Shown here: one piece after another, positions 6,456 through 12,702 of the stretch
Position numbering within the stretch: the first letter of the stretch is position 1
Layout: each line of letters opens with the position of its first letter
Source of the DNA: Candidatus Aenigmatarchaeota archaeon
GTDB lineage: Archaea; Aenigmatarchaeota; Aenigmatarchaeia; QMZP01
Length of the DNA stretch: 18,507 nt
NCBI GenBank assembly: GCA_030672315.1
Contig: DAOVGQ010000047.1
Coordinates: 1 to 18,507 of the forward strand
Direction of reading: 5' to 3'
Made by a program: the position numbers and the translations under genes
The notes under the pieces: model-generated
The model's input: only the letters and a program-made list of their open reading frames with translations
What the model was told of the DNA's origin: nothing
Databases searched by the model: none

Positions 6456-6681
6456 ACCAACCTAGTTTATTTTTGTCTTTGCTACTTAAAATATCAAAGG
6501 CTTCACATAAATCAAGTGTAAAAGCCCTGGGTGGGATTAGGGGTTTATTTTTAAAATCAGATTATAGACTATATACCAGAGTGGACAAACGGGCAACTGT
6601 ATATCATCTAGAGATACACGGAGCGAAACAGATAAGAAGATGGTTATCCGAATATGGGATAACAAATCAAGGAAGGATATT
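6456..6681. other. AT-rich intergenic region between roadblock gene and tRNA-Thr
   Basis: This contains the roadblock promoter (minus strand), a TATATA tract near 6570-6576 and a hairpin GTTATCC / GGATAAC around 6643-6663, just before tRNA-Thr. GAATATGGG near 6650 is the only TATA-like match at the usual distance from the tRNA start and is weak. A short frame that runs across this region into the tRNA has no credible start and is not considered a gene. Confidence 0.4.
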
Positions 6682-6862
6682 GCCTCGGTAGCTCAGTCGG
6701 TAGGAATCCGACGGGGGTTAGGCTTCCCGACAAAGAGCGTCAGAAGTGTTGCTTCCGCTAAACCTTGGTAAGGTGAAGGTCGCGAGTTCAAACGCACTGC
6801 TGGAGCATACCCTGAAGGGCACATGTGCGCATCCAGCAGGGCTGAATGTCTCGCCCGGGGCT
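6682..6862 (+). tRNA. tRNA-Thr(GGU) interrupted by three BHB introns (20/21, 28/29, 59/60)
   Basis: Exons are 6682-6701, 6734-6741, 6762-6792 and 6849-6862, totalling 73 nt. The mature form has acceptor GCCTCGG / CCGGGGC (one G-U), D-arm GCTC / GAGC with loop AGTCGGTA, anticodon stem TCACC / GGTGA with loop TTGGTAA (anticodon GGT, Thr), variable loop AGGTC, T-stem GCGAG / CTCGC, T-loop TTCAAAT, discriminator U73 and no encoded CCA. Intron 1 (6702-6733, 32 nt): central helix GTCG/CGAC, bulges GTA and AAA, inner helix GGAA/TTCC. Intron 2 (6742-6761, 20 nt): central AGCG/CGCT, bulges TCA and AAA, inner GAAG/CTTC. Intron 3 (6793-6848, 56 nt): outer helix is the T-stem itself, central TTCA/TGAA, bulges AAC and TGT, inner CTGCTGG/CCAGCAG. 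None is at the usual 37/38 site. The perfect cloverleaf after removal is the main evidence. Confidence 0.93.
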
Positions 6863-6947
6863 TATAAAAATAATTAACTAGAGGTAGCTACCAGGGCCTA
6901 TCCATTTATTATACGAGGTATTTATTAATTTATACCCAGGTGAAATC

Positions 6948-7424
6948 GTGGTTGAATATTTCGATGTTGTGGATAAGAAGGACAGGGTTGTAGGAAAGGC
7001 CTCCCGGGAAGAGGTTCATAAAAGCAGGGAGTGGCACAAGGCAGTCTATGTCTTTGTTTTCAACTCCGGGGGGGAGATGTTCCTTCAGGAAAGGAGCGAC
7101 GATAAGGATATGGAACCCGGAGTCTGGACATGCTCTGTATCAGGGCATCCTTCATCCGGGCAGTCATACATAGAGGCTGCCATCAGGGAGACAGAAGAGG
7201 AGATAGGGGTTAGGGTCAAGCCTAAACCGCTTTTCTTCATGAAATATGAACCATACAGGCACCACCTCTGGATATTCGAGGCCAGGCATGACGGGCCGTT
7301 CAAACTGGACCCGAATGAGATCAAGTCAGGAAGGTTTGTTTCAATGGAGGAGTTGAAAAAAGAGGTAAAGGAAAAGCCTGAGAGATTCTCGCCTGAGTTC
7401 CTGAAGATTCTGGAGAGATTCTAG
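6948..7424 (+). CDS. NUDIX hydrolase, IDI-1/YfcD-like
   Basis: The protein has 158 residues. The GTG start at 6948 follows AGGTGA by 4 nt. It opens with EYFDVVDKKDRVVGKASREEVHKS, as in type I isopentenyl-diphosphate isomerase and YfcD-like NUDIX proteins, and has REUxEExGU as RETEEEIGV (80-88). The position of the catalytic Cys of IDI-1 (SVCGHP) is Ser65 here (SVSGHP), although Cys62 is nearby; the usual GE before the NUDIX helix is GQ (Gln72). Its location opposite the isopentenyl phosphate kinase gene suggests an isoprenoid role: either the IPP/DMAPP isomerase of this pathway with a changed centre, or a hydrolase acting on isoprenyl diphosphates. A general NUDIX hydrolase remains possible. 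The stop overlaps that of the convergent kinase gene (CTAG). Confidence 0.75.
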   Translation: MVEYFDVVDKKDRVVGKASREEVHKSREWHKAVYVFVFNSGGEMFLQERSDDKDMEPGVWTCSVSGHPSSGQSYIEAAIRETEEEIGVRVKPKPLFFMKYEPYRHHLWIFEARHDGPFKLDPNEIKSGRFVSMEELKKEVKEKPERFSPEFLKILERF

Positions 7425-8218
7425 TATATAACAGTCTCTTTGACATGTTTTCCCAGGAGGGTCCTCTTGAGGTTTCCTGGGGTGTTTCCGTTAATAATGT
7501 ACACACTGGTGCCGCTGCGGGCAAGCCCAAGGGCCTGTTCTATCTTGTGGAGCATGCCGCCTGTAACGTCTATACCGTCAGAGTCTGACAGATGACCTCG
7601 AATCTCCTGGAAGCTCTCCTGGGTTATCTCTGGTATGTGCCTGGCAGAGCTGTCCCTGCTGGGGTCTCCTGTAAAGACGCCATCGGTCTTGCCGCACATT
7701 ATCACCCTCTTGGCGCCCAGGCTGCCTGAAAGGTGCCTGAACAGCTCCTCTGTGGAGAGTATGCAGCAGCCCCTCCTGACATCAATCCCCACATCGCCAT
7801 AGACAACAGGGAGCATCCCGTACTCAAGGAGCTTCTCAAGGGGCTTGGTGAACCACTCCCTGATTCTTCCGTCCTCTGATATTGTGGCAGCAGAGGGCTG
7901 TATAGTCATGGCGTTCTCTCCTGCCTTTATGAGGGAATCCACAACTATCCTGTTGAGGCGGGCTGCAGCATCCTGGACCTCGGCAATCCCCCTGTAGCTC
8001 TCCTTGCCGGTAACACCCTTCTGGGTCTGGTAGTCGCTTGCAGGCTTGTGTGGATAGGAGCCTCCGCCATGGCCGACAACAAGCCTTATTCCGGTCTCCT
8101 GTCTGGCCTCGTGTATCTCGCCTGCCAGGCGGTTGATAACATCGCGCCTCTCTGTAAAGGGCCTTGATTTGTCAGTAATCAGTGAGCCCCCAAGCTTTAG
8201 CAACACGGGTTCCGGCAT
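7421..8218 (-). CDS. ipk: Isopentenyl phosphate kinase
   Basis: This enzyme phosphorylates isopentenyl phosphate to isopentenyl diphosphate, the last step of the archaeal mevalonate route to IPP. It belongs to the amino-acid kinase fold. KLGGSLIT near the N-terminus (phosphate binding), GHGGGSYPH with the catalytic-type His at about residue 57, VVYGDVGID in the middle, and MCGKTDGVFTGDP plus DVTGGMLHKIEQA in the C-terminal half are all present. Starts at 8227 (GTG), 8221 (ATG) and 8218 (ATG) are possible; 8218 has the best spacing (5 nt) from GAGGTGG. This gives 265 residues, normal for the family. Start and upstream ubiX stop overlap, so translation is coupled. Confidence 0.92.
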   Translation of the reverse strand: MPEPVLLKLGGSLITDKSRPFTERRDVINRLAGEIHEARQETGIRLVVGHGGGSYPHKPASDYQTQKGVTGKESYRGIAEVQDAAARLNRIVVDSLIKAGENAMTIQPSAATISEDGRIREWFTKPLEKLLEYGMLPVVYGDVGIDVRRGCCILSTEELFRHLSGSLGAKRVIMCGKTDGVFTGDPSRDSSARHIPEITQESFQEIRGHLSDSDGIDVTGGMLHKIEQALGLARSGTSVYIINGNTPGNLKRTLLGKHVKETVIY

Positions 8219-8775
8219 CATTCCCACCTCTGGTAGATGTTGTTTTCCAGGCCCAGGCAGTCAAGGACCCTTCCCACTACATGATTGACAAGGTCGTTTA
8301 TATCCTTTGGCTTGGAGTAGAAGGATAAGACAGGAGGGAGGATTATCCCGCCTGCACGGGAGACCCTGGCCATGTTCTCGGTGTGTATGGAGCTCAGGGG
8401 CATCTCCCTGGTGACAAGGACAAGCCTCCTCCTCTCCTTGAGGCAGACATCAGCTGCCCTGAGTATGAGGTTGTCAGAGAAACCAGAGGCCACGCCTGCA
8501 AGGGTCTTCATGCTGCAGGGGATGATTACCATGCCGTCTGTTCTGAATGAACCCGAGGCCACAGGAGCAAAGAAGTCTGAATTCCCGTGGGTCTTCTTTG
8601 CCAGTTTCTTAAGGTCTGACATAGACTTGCCTGTCTCGTGCCCCATTATCTTCATGGCCGGCTCTGAAACAATAAGGTGGGTCTCCACACCCAGTTTCTT
8701 TAGCTCCTCGAGGAGTCGTATCCCGAGTATCGAGCCAGAGGCTCCGGACACGGCAACGATAATCCGCTTAGTCAT
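8218..8775 (-). CDS. ubiX: UbiX-type flavin prenyltransferase
   Basis: UbiX enzymes attach a dimethylallyl unit to FMN to make prenylated FMN, the cofactor of UbiD-type decarboxylases. The protein has 185 residues from ATG 8775, which follows AGGTGG by 6 nt and overlaps the previous stop. An upstream in-frame start at 8805 lies inside the previous gene and is unlikely. It shows the FMN-binding start VAVSGASGS, the family signature IIPCSMKTLAGVASGFSDNLILRAADVCLKERRRLVLVTREMPL, and a C-terminal ILPPVLSFYSKP. Its position between phosphomevalonate dehydratase and isopentenyl phosphate kinase indicates that the product serves the UbiD-like decarboxylase of the same operon. Confidence 0.93.
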   Translation of the reverse strand: MTKRIIVAVSGASGSILGIRLLEELKKLGVETHLIVSEPAMKIMGHETGKSMSDLKKLAKKTHGNSDFFAPVASGSFRTDGMVIIPCSMKTLAGVASGFSDNLILRAADVCLKERRRLVLVTREMPLSSIHTENMARVSRAGGIILPPVLSFYSKPKDINDLVNHVVGRVLDCLGLENNIYQRWE

Positions 8776-9160
8776 GAACTTCCACCTCACCCTTCTCAGC
8801 GTCAATGGTCAGGACGTTTCCTGTCTTTATGGCAGATATGTCTATCCCGTCAATGCAGGGTATGCCGGCGAGGATGGCCCCTGTGGCCACGATTGTCTCA
8901 GTCTCCTGGTTCACTATGGCCCTGGGGGCGACGCCGTTCCTCTTGAGGCCGTATATCACATAGGAGCCGACTGTGGATCCCTTTCCCCTGGGAAAGACCA
9001 GAATCCTGTCCTTCACGGATTGGCCCTCGAGCTCGTGGTCCTTCTCTATGAATATGCCTGTCTTGGCATCGATTCCGCCGTAGAAGCCTATGGGCTGGGA
9101 GGAGACCAGGGCCTCCCCTTCAACCCTTCCGGGGGATATGCAGCGTCCCTTGAGCTTCAT
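8768..9160 (-). CDS. Phosphomevalonate dehydratase small subunit (aconitase X small, DUF126)
   Basis: This is a 130-residue swivelling domain matching the small subunit of aconitase X. ISPGRVEGEALVSSQPIGFYGGID lies at the N-terminus and PRGKGSTVGSYVIY (about 77-90) is the family signature, followed by AIVNQETETIVATGAILAGIPCIDG. With the large subunit it forms the enzyme that removes water from (R)-mevalonate 5-phosphate to give trans-anhydromevalonate 5-phosphate in the archaeal mevalonate pathway. Its ATG overlaps the large-subunit stop (ATGA), which fits a 1:1 complex. Confidence 0.92.
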   Translation of the reverse strand: MKLKGRCISPGRVEGEALVSSQPIGFYGGIDAKTGIFIEKDHELEGQSVKDRILVFPRGKGSTVGSYVIYGLKRNGVAPRAIVNQETETIVATGAILAGIPCIDGIDISAIKTGNVLTIDAEKGEVEVHD

Positions 9161-10341
9161 GAGACCGCCTCCGCTATCAAATCATCGATGTTTTTGAAGA
9201 CCACGGCCTGCTTGCAGAATCCCGGCAGGTAGTTGGCTGCCTTGCCAGAGTCCACTGCAGTAGTCTTGTTGCCCATATCCTCTATGGGAGAGACCACCAT
9301 GCAGGTGTCCGCGACAACATTCCCCCCAGCATCCTCAATTATTCTGGTGTAGCCCTTTTCATCGGCCTGTTCCTTGACCTGCCTGGCGCAGCACACCCAG
9401 AGCCTTTTCCTTACCCTCCTGCCAGAGAGCCTGTCTGCCAACTCCCCTATCTGTTCCAGGGAGGCGTGGGGGCAGCCGAATATTGTTATGTCAGGGCTGT
9501 CGCCCGTGTTCAGGGCCTCATAGGTCTCCTTCATCTCCCTCTCGCCGAACTCGATTGTTTCCAGGCCCGAGATGTCCTGCTCTGCCTCAGGGGTTATGCC
9601 CTGGACATGGTAGAGGGCGACAGAGCCGGAGGCTGCCATGGCAGCCCCAAGGCCCTTGAGGATGTCCTGACTGGCAGACTGGATTCCGGTAAAGTATGGT
9701 ATGCCGCTGGTCACCTGCTTGCCGACCCAGTAGCCCATTGCCCCGAAATCAGAGTATGTTTTGGGTCTGGCAGATACCCTGACAACGACAGTGGACCTTC
9801 TCTTCTCGTCCAAGTGAAGGCCGTGATTGGGGGTAATCCCACAGAGGGCTGCAGCAAGGGAGGAGGGCCCGCCCTCCCTGTTGGTCCTGGCACCGAGAAT
9901 GGAATTGGCAAAGCTCACCGCAGAGGACTCTGACCAGGCAAGATGGTCTCCTCTGGAGGGCAGGTTGCCGCAGTAATAGGGTGTGCACGTGACAGTCGGT
10001 TTTATGCCCATATCAGAATAGGCCTTTATTATCTGGTTCTGTTTTTCAGCAAAATCCGCGGGGAATCCCAGCTGCTTCCAGGCCTTGAGGTCCATTCCAG
10101 CAGGATTCAGGGTGGTGAGAACCCTGGCCCGAGCCCCCTTGGAGGCAAAGTCCTGGAGGAATTCCAGGCCCGGGTCCCCTATTGATTTGTAGGATACGCC
10201 AGCAACCTGGGCGGATTTAATGGGAATCATGTTCTCGGCACCGTAAATCTCGCCGAGCCTTACAATCAGGCGCATGCAGCGCTCCACCACATCACCCTGC
10301 TCGCCATTGAGCATGGCCTCTTCCTGCTTGTTTAGAAACAT
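9157..10341 (-). CDS. Phosphomevalonate dehydratase large subunit (aconitase X large, DUF521)
   Basis: This is the catalytic, iron-sulfur-containing subunit of phosphomevalonate dehydratase. The protein has 394 residues from ATG 10341. The frame is open further upstream, but that part lies inside the preceding gene, while MFLNKQEEAMLNGEQG is the normal aconitase X start and GGTGA precedes it by 5 nt. Conserved aconitase X segments are CTPYYCGNLPSRGDHLAWSE, then SSAVSFANSILGARTNREGG, CGITPNHGLHLDE and FGCPHASLEQI, containing candidate cluster-ligand cysteines. It begins 1 nt after the decarboxylase stop, and the small subunit overlaps its end. No key residue looks lost. Confidence 0.93.
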   Translation of the reverse strand: MFLNKQEEAMLNGEQGDVVERCMRLIVRLGEIYGAENMIPIKSAQVAGVSYKSIGDPGLEFLQDFASKGARARVLTTLNPAGMDLKAWKQLGFPADFAEKQNQIIKAYSDMGIKPTVTCTPYYCGNLPSRGDHLAWSESSAVSFANSILGARTNREGGPSSLAAALCGITPNHGLHLDEKRRSTVVVRVSARPKTYSDFGAMGYWVGKQVTSGIPYFTGIQSASQDILKGLGAAMAASGSVALYHVQGITPEAEQDISGLETIEFGEREMKETYEALNTGDSPDITIFGCPHASLEQIGELADRLSGRRVRKRLWVCCARQVKEQADEKGYTRIIEDAGGNVVADTCMVVSPIEDMGNKTTAVDSGKAANYLPGFCKQAVVFKNIDDLIAEAVS

Positions 10342-10342
10342 G

Positions 10343-11617
10343 TCAGTCACCCAGGTAGTCCTCAACCCGGACATCCATGGAAGGCCTGGGTTTGGTGAAA
10401 AGATTTCTGTCCCTGCCCCACGGTATGGTTGCATCCAGGCCCACCTTTGCGGTCTCCCTGGTCTCCAGGTTTGAACTAGGGTCAAGTGATGAGCCCTTTT
10501 CCTTAGGCCTGATTACAGCGTCCCTGTCGGCCTGGAACCTTGTTGCAATGGCCCATTCAATCTCAGCTGGATTGCCTATGTCTATATCATCATCAACAAC
10601 AATCACGTGCTTCATGGACCTGTGCCCCCTGAAGGCAGCATCAATGACCTTCCTGCCGTCGTCCTCGGACTTCTTTTTTATACTGACAATGCCGTGGAGC
10701 CAGGAGCATCCGCCCGGGGTTATCAGGACATCCCTGCACTCACACACCTTGCTCACCTCTGAAAAGATAGTTGGCTCCCTGGGCATGCCCATAAGGGTTT
10801 TATGCTCGAGGCCTCCTGGAAGCAGGGCATGGAAGACGGGGTTCTTCTTTGCATATATCTTCTTGACTCTGAAAACAGGCTGCTCCCTGACAATGTCAAG
10901 GGTCTCTGTCAGGTCAAGGAAGGGGCCCTCCCTGGCCTTCTCGCCAGTGGTCTCTGCTATCATGACAATCTCGGCCTCTGGGACGGTGTGGCCGTCCACG
11001 TCAACCACTCTTGTCTTTTTCAGGGAGTTTGCTATGGAGAGTTCGTTCACTCCCATGTCAGGGGACATGGCAGAGGCAACAAGGACCTGTATGGGGTTGC
11101 CTATGCAGATTGCGAACTCCTTGAGGCCCCTCTCCAGGTATTCATTGAAGTTCCTGGGGATTATCCTTGCAACGAACCTGTCCCTGCCAAGGAGCATCAT
11201 TCTGTGGTATGAAGCATTGATGCCAAAATCCTTGTCCCTTGCAAAGAATATGGCAGAGGCTATATAGGGGCCGCCGTCCTCCCTCAGGTAGGTAAGAACG
11301 GGGATTTTCTCGAGGTCGCAGGAGAGCTCCTGGTATTCATGCTTAAGGACATCTGGTTCATCGGGCTCTTTCAGGGCCCTGGTGAGCTTCTGAATCAGCT
11401 TGCCCTTCTCGGTGTCCAGGCCGAGGGCGACCATGTCCCTGGTGGAGCAGATATTGGCAACCACGGGCATGTCAAAGTCCTTGACGTTCTCAAAGAGCAG
11501 GGCCCTGTCCTCTAGCCTCCTCATTATCGATGCTATTTCATATCTTGGAGAGACAGGCTTCTCTATTCTGGCAAGCATGCCTTTCTTCTCAAGTTTTTCC
11601 AGGTATTCGCGAAGCAT
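10343..11617 (-). CDS. UbiD-family anhydromevalonate phosphate decarboxylase
   Basis: This 424-residue UbiD-family enzyme is expected to decarboxylate trans-anhydromevalonate 5-phosphate to isopentenyl phosphate using prenylated FMN. UbiD hallmarks are ASYHRMMLLGRDRFVARIIPRNF near residues 135-155, VPEAEIVMIAETTGEKAREGPFLDLTET near the middle, and the C-terminal core VIVVDDDIDIGNPAEIEWAIATRFQADRD. UbiD proteins act on many substrates, but placement with mevalonate kinase, both dehydratase subunits, UbiX and isopentenyl phosphate kinase makes the mevalonate role by far the best reading. ATG 11617 has a TATA box 26 nt upstream and no Shine-Dalgarno sequence, so the mRNA is probably leaderless and heads the five-gene run. 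Confidence 0.93.
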   Translation of the reverse strand: MLREYLEKLEKKGMLARIEKPVSPRYEIASIMRRLEDRALLFENVKDFDMPVVANICSTRDMVALGLDTEKGKLIQKLTRALKEPDEPDVLKHEYQELSCDLEKIPVLTYLREDGGPYIASAIFFARDKDFGINASYHRMMLLGRDRFVARIIPRNFNEYLERGLKEFAICIGNPIQVLVASAMSPDMGVNELSIANSLKKTRVVDVDGHTVPEAEIVMIAETTGEKAREGPFLDLTETLDIVREQPVFRVKKIYAKKNPVFHALLPGGLEHKTLMGMPREPTIFSEVSKVCECRDVLITPGGCSWLHGIVSIKKKSEDDGRKVIDAAFRGHRSMKHVIVVDDDIDIGNPAEIEWAIATRFQADRDAVIRPKEKGSSLDPSSNLETRETAKVGLDATIPWGRDRNLFTKPRPSMDVRVEDYLGD

Positions 11618-11638
11618 ATTAACACATTTTGGCTTTAT

Positions 11639-11646
11639 GATTTAAA
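11639..11646 (-). promoter_or_regulatory. TATA box of the decarboxylase-to-kinase operon
   Basis: On the minus strand TTTAAATC is centred 26 nt before the ATG at 11617. It lies in the 59-nt gap after mevalonate kinase, so the five downstream genes can be transcribed separately from that gene. Confidence 0.6.
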
Positions 11647-11676
11647 CATTGGGGTTGGTTATCGACACAAGGCGAA

Positions 11677-12702
11677 CTATTCCAGCCTGACACCCTCTGC
11701 ACCCATCTCGGTCTCCCAAGGGGTGCAACCCGCGTCCCTTATAACCTTCTTGAGGGCCTCCTTGTCCTCGTGGCAGGACAGCATGATTCCCCCGCCGCAA
11801 GCCCCGCAGAGCTTGGCAGCGCCGCCGATTCCCTGGATTTTTGAAATCAGGTTGTCGGCCTCGGGTATCGAGAGCCCGAGCTCGGAGAGATTCTTCCAGG
11901 CCAGGTTTATGAGCTCCTTAACCCTTGGAAAATCCCTGTTCCTGAGGGCTGTGCGCATATCCCTGGATGCCTGGCCGATTGTCTTTATCCTCGGCTCACG
12001 GAATGAGGGGTCGAGGTCTCTGACATGGGAGACTAGCTCGCCGGTGGTCTTTACAGGCTTCTTGACATAGGTGAGCACAAAGTTCTCGAGTTTGTACGGA
12101 ATCTCCTCCTTCAGGGACTCCAGGGTGGGCCTTCCATTCTTGTCTTTCTGGAACCAGATGAGGCCCCCGTAGCAGGAGATGGTGTTGTCTCCACCTGAAG
12201 GGGTTCCGTGGGCGAGCTTCTCGATGTCAAGTGCAACCTTGTTCACCTCCTCAAGGGTGAGTTCCTTTCCATAGAGCTCGGATATGGCCCTGGTAAGGGC
12301 CACGGCAAGCGCAGAGCTCGATCCCAGGCCTGAGCCGAGGGGGATGTCCCCATAGATGTTAACATTGACTCCGGAGGGAATGCCAAGTCTGTGAAGAATC
12401 ATGCCAATGGCCACCTTCTTGAAGTTCTGGCTGTCCTTGACAAAGCTGAAGAGCTTTGAGAAATCCTTCTGCTCGAAGCCGTGCATCCACATGGTCTGGG
12501 CCTGCATGGCAGAGTCGATGCAGTCCTCAATAGGCCACTCCTCTTCCATGGACTGGCTCCTGTCCTTCATCCTGACCTTGTCATGTTTCTCGGCCTCGAC
12601 CCATATCCGCTTGCCAATGGCTGCCATGATGGCCGGTTCGCCATAGACCACGGCATGGTCGCCTATAAGGTGGATCTTTCCGGGTGCTGATGCCTTAATC
12701 AT
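11677..12702 (-). CDS. mvk: Mevalonate kinase
   Basis: This 341-residue GHMP-family kinase makes mevalonate 5-phosphate from mevalonate and ATP. It shows KASAPGKIHLIGDHAVVYGEPA at the N-terminus (substrate motif), the glycine-rich ATP loop PLGSGLGSSSALAVAL about a third of the way in, HGTPSGGDNTISCYGG (motif containing the catalytic-type Asp), and the C-terminal GGAAKLCGACGGGIML. The length suits archaeal mevalonate kinases. TATA-like GTTTATTAAGC on the minus strand is about 26 nt before the ATG, pointing to a leaderless transcript. It stands upstream of the rest of the pathway on the same strand. Confidence 0.94.
   Translation of the reverse strand: MIKASAPGKIHLIGDHAVVYGEPAIMAAIGKRIWVEAEKHDKVRMKDRSQSMEEEWPIEDCIDSAMQAQTMWMHGFEQKDFSKLFSFVKDSQNFKKVAIGMILHRLGIPSGVNVNIYGDIPLGSGLGSSSALAVALTRAISELYGKELTLEEVNKVALDIEKLAHGTPSGGDNTISCYGGLIWFQKDKNGRPTLESLKEEIPYKLENFVLTYVKKPVKTTGELVSHVRDLDPSFREPRIKTIGQASRDMRTALRNRDFPRVKELINLAWKNLSELGLSIPEADNLISKIQGIGGAAKLCGACGGGIMLSCHEDKEALKKVIRDAGCTPWETEMGAEGVRLE

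Follow-up and report, generated by a model that had tools for sequence, protein, structure and literature searches.

Can a tRNA gene that is cut into four pieces, with every cut away from the canonical intron position, still encode an intact tRNA, and do related genomes carry the same interruptions? These questions are raised by a locus on a contig of 18,507 nucleotides (the window, by which we mean the whole stretch of DNA analysed here), for which an original prediction, made from the letters of the sequence, had proposed a tRNA-Thr(GGU) split by three BHB introns. Our analysis leads us to conclude, with a probability of roughly 0.9, that an uncultured, Aenigmatarchaeota-like archaeon here carries tRNA-Thr(GGU) in a gene with three BHB introns; the predicted course is that the splicing endonuclease cuts the transcript, which is then joined into a 73-nt tRNA. 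Relatives are denoted below by G numbers, and the sequences within them by C or L numbers.

Results

The spliced product is a complete tRNA-Thr(GGU)

The gene occupies positions 6682-6862 of the forward strand of the window and is interrupted at 20/21, 28/29 and 59/60. Its parts are as follows:

6682..6701, + strand: exon 1, with the acceptor 5' strand, U8-A9, the D-stem 5' strand and the D-loop to U20
6702..6733, + strand: intron 1, 32 nt, at 20/21; central helix 6696-6699 with 6728-6731 (GTCG/CGAC)
6734..6741, + strand: exon 2, 8 nt, with A21, the D-stem 3' strand, base 26 and anticodon-stem bases 1-2
6742..6761, + strand: intron 2, 20 nt, at 28/29 inside the anticodon stem; central helix 6736-6739 with 6756-6759 (AGCG/CGCT)
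6762..6792, + strand: exon 3, with the remaining anticodon stem, the GGU loop, the variable loop, the T-stem 5' strand and the T-loop to 59
6793..6848, + strand: intron 3, 56 nt, at 59/60; central helix 6787-6790 with 6843-6846 (TTCA/TGAA)
6849..6862, + strand: exon 4, with U60, the T-stem 3' strand, the acceptor 3' strand and U73

Excision of the three introns leaves a complete cloverleaf of 73 nt, with acceptor stem GCCTCGG/CCGGGGC followed by U73, D-stem GCTC/GAGC, anticodon stem TCACC/GGTGA enclosing the loop TTGGTAA, and T-stem GCGAG/CTCGC. Refolding (minimum free energy -32.2 kcal/mol) agrees with the cloverleaf of paired stems and anticodon GGU that had been predicted. The anticodon lies in a 7-nt loop with U33 and a closing stem of 5 bp, features that point to tRNA-Thr(GGU) by sequence. 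The exons follow one another in order on one strand, within 181 bases, and join to a complete cloverleaf; the gene therefore has the organization of an archaeal intron-containing tRNA and not that of a split or permuted one. An Rfam search of positions 6500-7100 yielded no group I or group II intron at E values up to 10.

The joins were examined with a purpose-written finder for tRNAs carrying up to four BHB introns, of which three were allowed in the window scan. It returned two rows, both at this locus. The better one, with a score of 99, has precisely the joins originally proposed and so upholds all three non-canonical sites, while the other (score 96) cuts intron 1 elsewhere and makes the D-loop two bases longer; the opposite strand of the window gave nothing. 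The expectation that standard finders would overlook the gene was borne out for the two that we tried, since its three inserts hide it from both: ARAGORN reports no tRNA in the window, and Rfam reports none there at gathering level and nothing around the locus (6500-7100) at E up to 10.

Inspection by eye of the forward strand upstream of the gene (window 6560-6681) showed that about 100 nt separate TATA-like sequences from the tRNA, possibly a long leader, and that a hairpin-like sequence, GTTATCC...GGGATAAC, lies immediately before it.

BHB motifs and a predicted order of intron removal

All three joins combine a 4-bp central helix with bulges of 3 nt, as expected of archaeal BHB introns, and to this extent the motif that had been predicted at each junction is present. 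Beyond this the three differ. Intron 3 has the full motif, which uses the T-stem as its outer helix and appears in the unconstrained minimum-energy fold. At intron 1, where the central helix GTCG/CGAC is joined by the inner helix GGAA/TTCC, the prediction needs amending, since A14 turns the outer bulge into a 1x3 loop; folding of the fragment adds a G19-C pair. At intron 2, the central helix AGCG/CGCT and the inner helix GAAG/CTTC are accompanied by almost no outer helix, again a departure from what had been proposed. Neither the intron 1 nor the intron 2 motif occurs in the minimum-energy fold of the full precursor.

The outer helix of intron 1 needs positions 22-25 and the central helix of intron 2 needs positions 23-26, so that both cannot be complete together, and because they share this D-stem strand intron 2 is likely to be removed before intron 1. 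Pairing probabilities computed for the weakest pair of each central helix point the same way. At 37 °C, the value for intron 1 rises from 0.08 in the full precursor to 0.75 once intron 2 has been taken out, that for intron 2 is lowered from 0.20 to 0.07 by prior removal of intron 1, and that for intron 3 stays at 0.43-0.46. At 60 °C, intron 1 again gains from the loss of intron 2 (0.29 to 0.76), intron 2 barely changes on removal of intron 1 (0.35 to 0.33), and intron 3 lies at 0.36-0.48. These calculations suggest that intron 2 leaves before intron 1; as intron 2 hardly depends on intron 1 at 60 °C, the argument for an order rests mainly on the behaviour of intron 1.

The strongest alternative is that the introns are real but leave independently, without this order, to which we give somewhat below even odds. 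The predicted probabilities are modest and vary with temperature, intron 2 is scarcely affected by the loss of intron 1 at the higher temperature, and some archaeal endonucleases accept relaxed motifs, according to the portions consulted of two papers (PMC12397907, PMC4090602), in which case the outer helix may not matter. What argues against independent removal is the single D-stem strand required by the outer helix of intron 1 and the central helix of intron 2. In the ordered scheme, which we prefer, the transcript of the gene would be cut at each BHB by the splicing endonuclease, removal of intron 2 would come first and free the D-stem for intron 1, intron 3, which folds by itself, might leave at any time, and RtcB would ligate the exons to give the 73-nt tRNA.

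Candidate splicing enzymes in related genomes

Neither EndA nor RtcB is among the annotated proteins of the window. EndA was found in six of the seven relatives searched (the exception being G007), and RtcB in three of four (the exception being G118). In G112, RtcB is represented by two partial matches that lie 15 kb from each other and on different strands (C1:332401-333285, +, and C1:317165-317689, -), which by sequence may be a split gene, an assembly fault or two partial genes.

The 399-aa EndA of G112 matches the ARMAN-2 epsilon2 enzyme (4fz2) over residues 16-399 with an E value of 3e-92 and conserves Tyr160-Lys161 of the epsilon2-specific loop; by eye, the 392-aa EndA of G118 has the same Tyr-Lys. 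A second EndA, shorter than the first, is present in G112 and in G123. The loop has been tied to broad specificity, as stated in the part of that report available to us (PMC12397907). Taking a best E value below 1e-60 as the mark of the epsilon type, 45 of 156 genomes qualify. We considered whether an epsilon2 endonuclease could by itself explain tRNA gene fragmentation and rejected the idea: some genomes that lack it have low tRNA counts (G100, G102), and some that have it show high ones (G054, G114).

Source lineage and gene neighbourhood

The nearest named relatives in a protein search with AcnX, among 120 relatives listed, are Aenigmarchaeota, at 77 and 65% identity. The isopentenyl phosphate kinase of the window is 73% identical to that of G112 (the highest value among the 68 genomes with a match, out of 156 in the phylum of G001) and 64% identical to that of G123, and its FtsZ is 91% identical to the G123 protein and 87% to the G118 protein. 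Judged by the similarity of these proteins, the contig is Aenigmatarchaeota-like, in keeping with the original remark that the protein genes do not look crenarchaeal: the named relatives are Aenigmarchaeota or Aenigmatarchaeota. Aenigmatarchaeota is a phylum of DPANN. A scan of genome contigs with a single AcnX protein found no relative; the alignment did find relatives.

Two genes follow the tRNA:

6948-7424, + strand: Nudix gene, between the tRNA-Thr gene and the isopentenyl phosphate kinase gene
7421..8227, - strand: isopentenyl phosphate kinase gene (NCBIfam IPPK_Arch, above cut-off), the anchor for syntenic loci

Other neighbours in the window include FtsZ, an Nre protein and a HerA-like ATPase. 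The kinase gene also belongs to a cluster on the reverse strand (7421-12702) that comprises isopentenyl phosphate kinase, UbiX-like, AcnX small and large, UbiD-like and mevalonate-kinase-like genes, and that resembles, judged partly by annotation, an archaeal alternative mevalonate pathway.

Orthologues keep the cloverleaf

G123 and G001 carry an intronless tRNA-Thr(GGU) downstream of the same kinase gene. The tRNA is on the strand opposite to the kinase in G001 and in the window, with HerA further on, and on the strand of the kinase in G123. The spliced product of the window aligns without gaps with its orthologues and shares 67 of 73 positions with that of G123, 63 with G118 and 58 with G001. 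Every pair is standard in the tRNA-Thr of the window, G123 and G118, and G001 has one A-C; at pair 52-62 of the T-stem, the window and G118 have A-U where G123 and G001 have G-C. The original prediction had named loss of pairing in close relatives as evidence that would count against it, and this was not seen: apart from the one A-C, the exon pairings of the orthologues are kept, and the same three sites are used. That introns in this tRNA-Thr are dispensable is shown by the nearest of the relatives that lack them, G123 and G001. A short match to the mature tRNA at position 124169 of G112 was rejected, since the 310 bases searched there contain no T-loop motif.

The intronless genes of these close relatives are also what might lead one to regard the locus as a decaying tRNA pseudogene that has accumulated unrelated insertions and is not spliced. 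We consider this very unlikely, because every stem pair of the spliced molecule is standard, one T-stem pair has changed on both sides relative to G123, each insertion sits in a BHB motif, and relatives use the same intron sites. A chance arrangement or assembly artefact, in which unrelated pieces of a single metagenome contig are joined by three freely chosen cuts that permit many combinations, is extremely unlikely, since the strict finder, run on one strand of 160 dinucleotide-shuffled versions of the window (2.96 Mb in total), never reached a score of 50, against 99 at the locus, and the spliced product aligns gap-free with orthologues near the same kinase gene.

Each intron site is used in tRNA-Thr(GGU) of relatives

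The tRNA-Thr(GGU) of G118 has introns at 20/21 and 59/60, and that of G102 has three, at 20/21, 37/38 and 59/60 (sites read from the exons). On C7 of G118, within a foreign-looking cluster, there is in addition an intact tRNA-Thr(GGU)-like gene that lacks introns and differs in sequence; it is perhaps foreign itself.

Searching the 156 genomes for a tRNA-Thr(GGU) pattern in which the anticodon arm is uninterrupted gave 42 places, spread over 40 genomes; all 42 were examined for typing, in sets of 30 and 12. For five of the 30, the finder gave no model and the loci were read by motif. A D-loop intron is present in 11 of the 42 loci and a T-loop intron in 10; six have both, 15 have either, 18 have neither and nine could not be typed. 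These counts take G001 as intronless, although its A-C pair kept the script from deciding on the T-loop, and they include G094 and G120 for the D-loop intron with the T-loop left open. Besides G118 and G102, 10 typed loci have an intron at 20/21.

A BLAST search with window positions 6640-6900 had matches in 50 of the 156 genomes, from which 16 stretches were taken, chosen for matching. In 11 of these 16, selected as they were for similarity, tRNA-Thr(GGU) has an intron at 28/29 (sites read from the exons), either alone (G073, G075, G076, G092, G093), together with one at 53/54 (G014) or together with one at 42/43 (G062, G064, G065, G068, G080). Among the remaining stretches, G134 has an intron at 59/60, G072 is intronless and G120 yielded a tRNA-Val; the finder gave no model for those of G019 and G071. 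Each site of the window is thus used in the same isoacceptor elsewhere, and the combination of 20/21, 28/29 and 59/60 was found in the window only, among the relatives examined. Such a mosaic of full and empty sites probably reflects repeated gain and loss, with some introns having moved between tRNA genes.

Intron 3 is shared with a tRNA-Val

The best BLAST match, on C37 of G120, is identical at 64 of 82 bases (78%) and covers the T-stem and the whole of intron 3. It belongs to a tRNA-Val(CAC) with a related intron, also of 56 nt, at 59/60; the tRNA-Thr(GGU) of the same genome, with a D-loop intron, lies on another contig. One intron at one site of two different tRNAs is the pattern that intron transposition would leave, by analogy with the transposition between tRNAs described for Thermoproteales in the sections seen of PMC4090602, citing Fujishima 2010. 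None of the three introns of the window was among the best 40 intron-to-intron matches against the introns of G112 and G118.

tRNA genes are fragmented across several related genomes

In the genome of G112, a single scaffold of 742,325 bases with 8,400 N, Rfam finds 8 tRNAs and ARAGORN 5, or 10 with introns allowed. Our finder, run in relaxed form, recovered 23 scoring at least 74, where the best score on the reversed genome was 61. Introns interrupt 19 of the 23, each of these having at least one away from 37/38 and 13 having several, and the commonest site is 59/60 (14 of 36 introns). No tRNA-Thr(GGU) is among these 23, and the finder is incomplete, having missed a tRNA-Lys that ARAGORN finds with an intron.

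G118 (885,619 bases) gave 21 tRNAs, against a best score of 66 on the reversed genome; 17 have a non-canonical intron and 11 have several introns, with 59/60 again the commonest site (10 of 36). The 21 include four C7 loci (28960-29924), three of them intronless and one with an odd 68/69 intron, which look foreign and may be contamination. The two introns at 72/73 in each of G112 and G118 are probably artefacts of the finder and are still included in the counts for those genomes. With 72/73 forbidden and 820,000 of 832,779 bases scanned, G102 gave 17 tRNAs scoring at least 76 (best on reversed sequence, 61), of which 14 have introns and 12 have at least one away from 37/38, the rows being read by hand.

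The Rfam tRNA model finds from 2 to 30 tRNAs per genome across the 156, with about 29 candidates scored in each under stricter filters and irrespective of completeness. In this survey, 14 genomes of 0.4-1.0 Mb have at most five:

Genomes with at most five Rfam tRNAs: G014, G020, G059, G077, G082, G084, G096, G100, G101, G102, G120, G125, G126, G130

Introns are shown to account for the low tRNA counts in G112, G118 and G102, of which the first two were scanned in full and the third for the most part.

Two anticodons unusual in archaea, AAG (Leu) and TAT (Ile), were read by the finder in G112 (C1:44466-44622, -, and C1:111422-111677, -), and such readings recur in G118 (C13:17044-17243, -, and C17:33932-34221, +) and G102 (C1:697772-697984, -). 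They could be real or the result of a misplaced join.

Discussion

Relation to known multi-intron tRNAs

Three scattered BHB introns in one tRNA were already known, as the available parts of two papers describe (PMC4090602, PMC3218864). Pyrobaculum islandicum tRNA-Pro(UGG), for instance, has introns at 25/26, 56/57 and the canonical site, according to the former (PMC4090602). The text seen of that paper also describes Thermoproteales tRNAs that resemble ours in carrying several short, mostly non-canonical BHB introns, with 20/21 and 59/60 among the sites and similar introns common to different tRNAs (PMC4090602). The gene in the window differs in belonging to another phylum, in having no canonical intron among its three and in using 28/29, which is not among the sites given in that text (PMC4090602).

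The original prediction named Thermoproteales as the group best known for such genes, which is right yet incomplete, since multi-intron, non-canonical tRNA genes have also been reported in Asgard archaea, on the evidence of the passages available from PMC11291895. In Atabeyarchaeia and Freyarchaeia, those passages state, 92-95% of tRNA genes have introns, often non-canonical, and over half have several; the window is from a different lineage, and the likeness is one of description (PMC11291895). In Caldiarchaeum, as far as the excerpt of PMC3293823 goes, it is likewise tRNA-Thr(GGU) that shows intron gain or loss among close relatives; the gene there is subject to splitting, with three types in one population that are put down to integration of a mobile element, whereas the window has three introns in one gene (PMC3293823). 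The epsilon2 endonuclease of ARMAN-2 (PMC12397907) is like the EndA of G112, a match that lies in relatives and not in the window itself; a fragmented tRNA set also occurs without the epsilon type, in G102.

Our literature search covered titles and abstract openings, with most subscription papers and all preprints outside it, and none of the matches listed concerned tRNA introns in Aenigmatarchaeota. To multi-intron tRNAs known from Thermoproteales and Asgard archaea, the window thus adds a DPANN phylum, which is new as far as that search reaches.

Intron spread in a phylum with small genomes

A broader reading, to which we would give a little less than an even chance, is that introns invaded the stable RNA genes of Aenigmatarchaeota in a process distinct from the corresponding invasions in Thermoproteales and Asgard archaea. 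Families of small, structured BHB introns would have spread through tRNA genes, mainly by way of the T-loop site 59/60, and would also have reached rRNA genes, leaving some genomes with hardly a tRNA gene that standard tools can see; the tRNA-Thr of the window, one of whose introns is shared with the tRNA-Val of a relative, would be a product of this process.

Heavy fragmentation of tRNA genes is now seen in a DPANN phylum with small genomes, where tRNAs missed by standard tools could pass for genome reduction, host dependence or poor assembly, and where estimates of completeness and codon decoding made from standard tRNA annotation would be affected. The relatives of the window tRNA-Thr form an unusually informative set: because a site that is full in one related genome may be empty or differently filled in another, they offer a test case for the movement and loss of BHB introns, and also for the proposal that broad-specificity endonucleases and intron variety have co-evolved.

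Other intron families in related genomes

A structured intron of about 71 nt, modelled from alignment A2 and here called R1, recurs in many tRNAs at different sites (59/60, 58/59, 37/38, 15/16 and 20/21), for example at L144:14252-14322 (+) in G112 and as the D-loop intron of tRNA-Thr in G148 (L299). Six of its 11 predicted pairs show changes on both sides. R1 matches 71 of the 156 genomes of the phylum, with up to 31 copies per genome. The 21 matches of the R1 covariance model all fall in pieces of G112, with none in the window; of these 21 places, 12 lie within the tRNA loci of the finder.

R1 also occurs outside tRNAs. One copy, L143:6589-6650 (-), lies inside the 16S gene of G112 (L143:5106-7361, -), over which Rfam SSU_rRNA_archaea spans 2256 bases against a model of 1478 positions, and two copies in G102 (C1:781226-781297 and 792657-792716, -) lie, by eye, in 23S-like and 16S-like sequence. 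Further copies in G112, outside recognised tRNAs and rRNAs, are found at C1:632336-632490, 687818-687874, 697293-697343, 237343-237414 and 111679-111748, and are possible traces of mobility. The copy at C1:111679 has, by eye, the same tRNA 5' piece on both flanks, as a duplication would leave.

A second family, of 39 nt, occupies 59/60 in the tRNA-His, tRNA-Phe and tRNA-Glu(CTC) of G112, whose copies are 90-92% identical, and a T-loop intron that looks similar by eye is present in the tRNA-Thr of G146 (L298).
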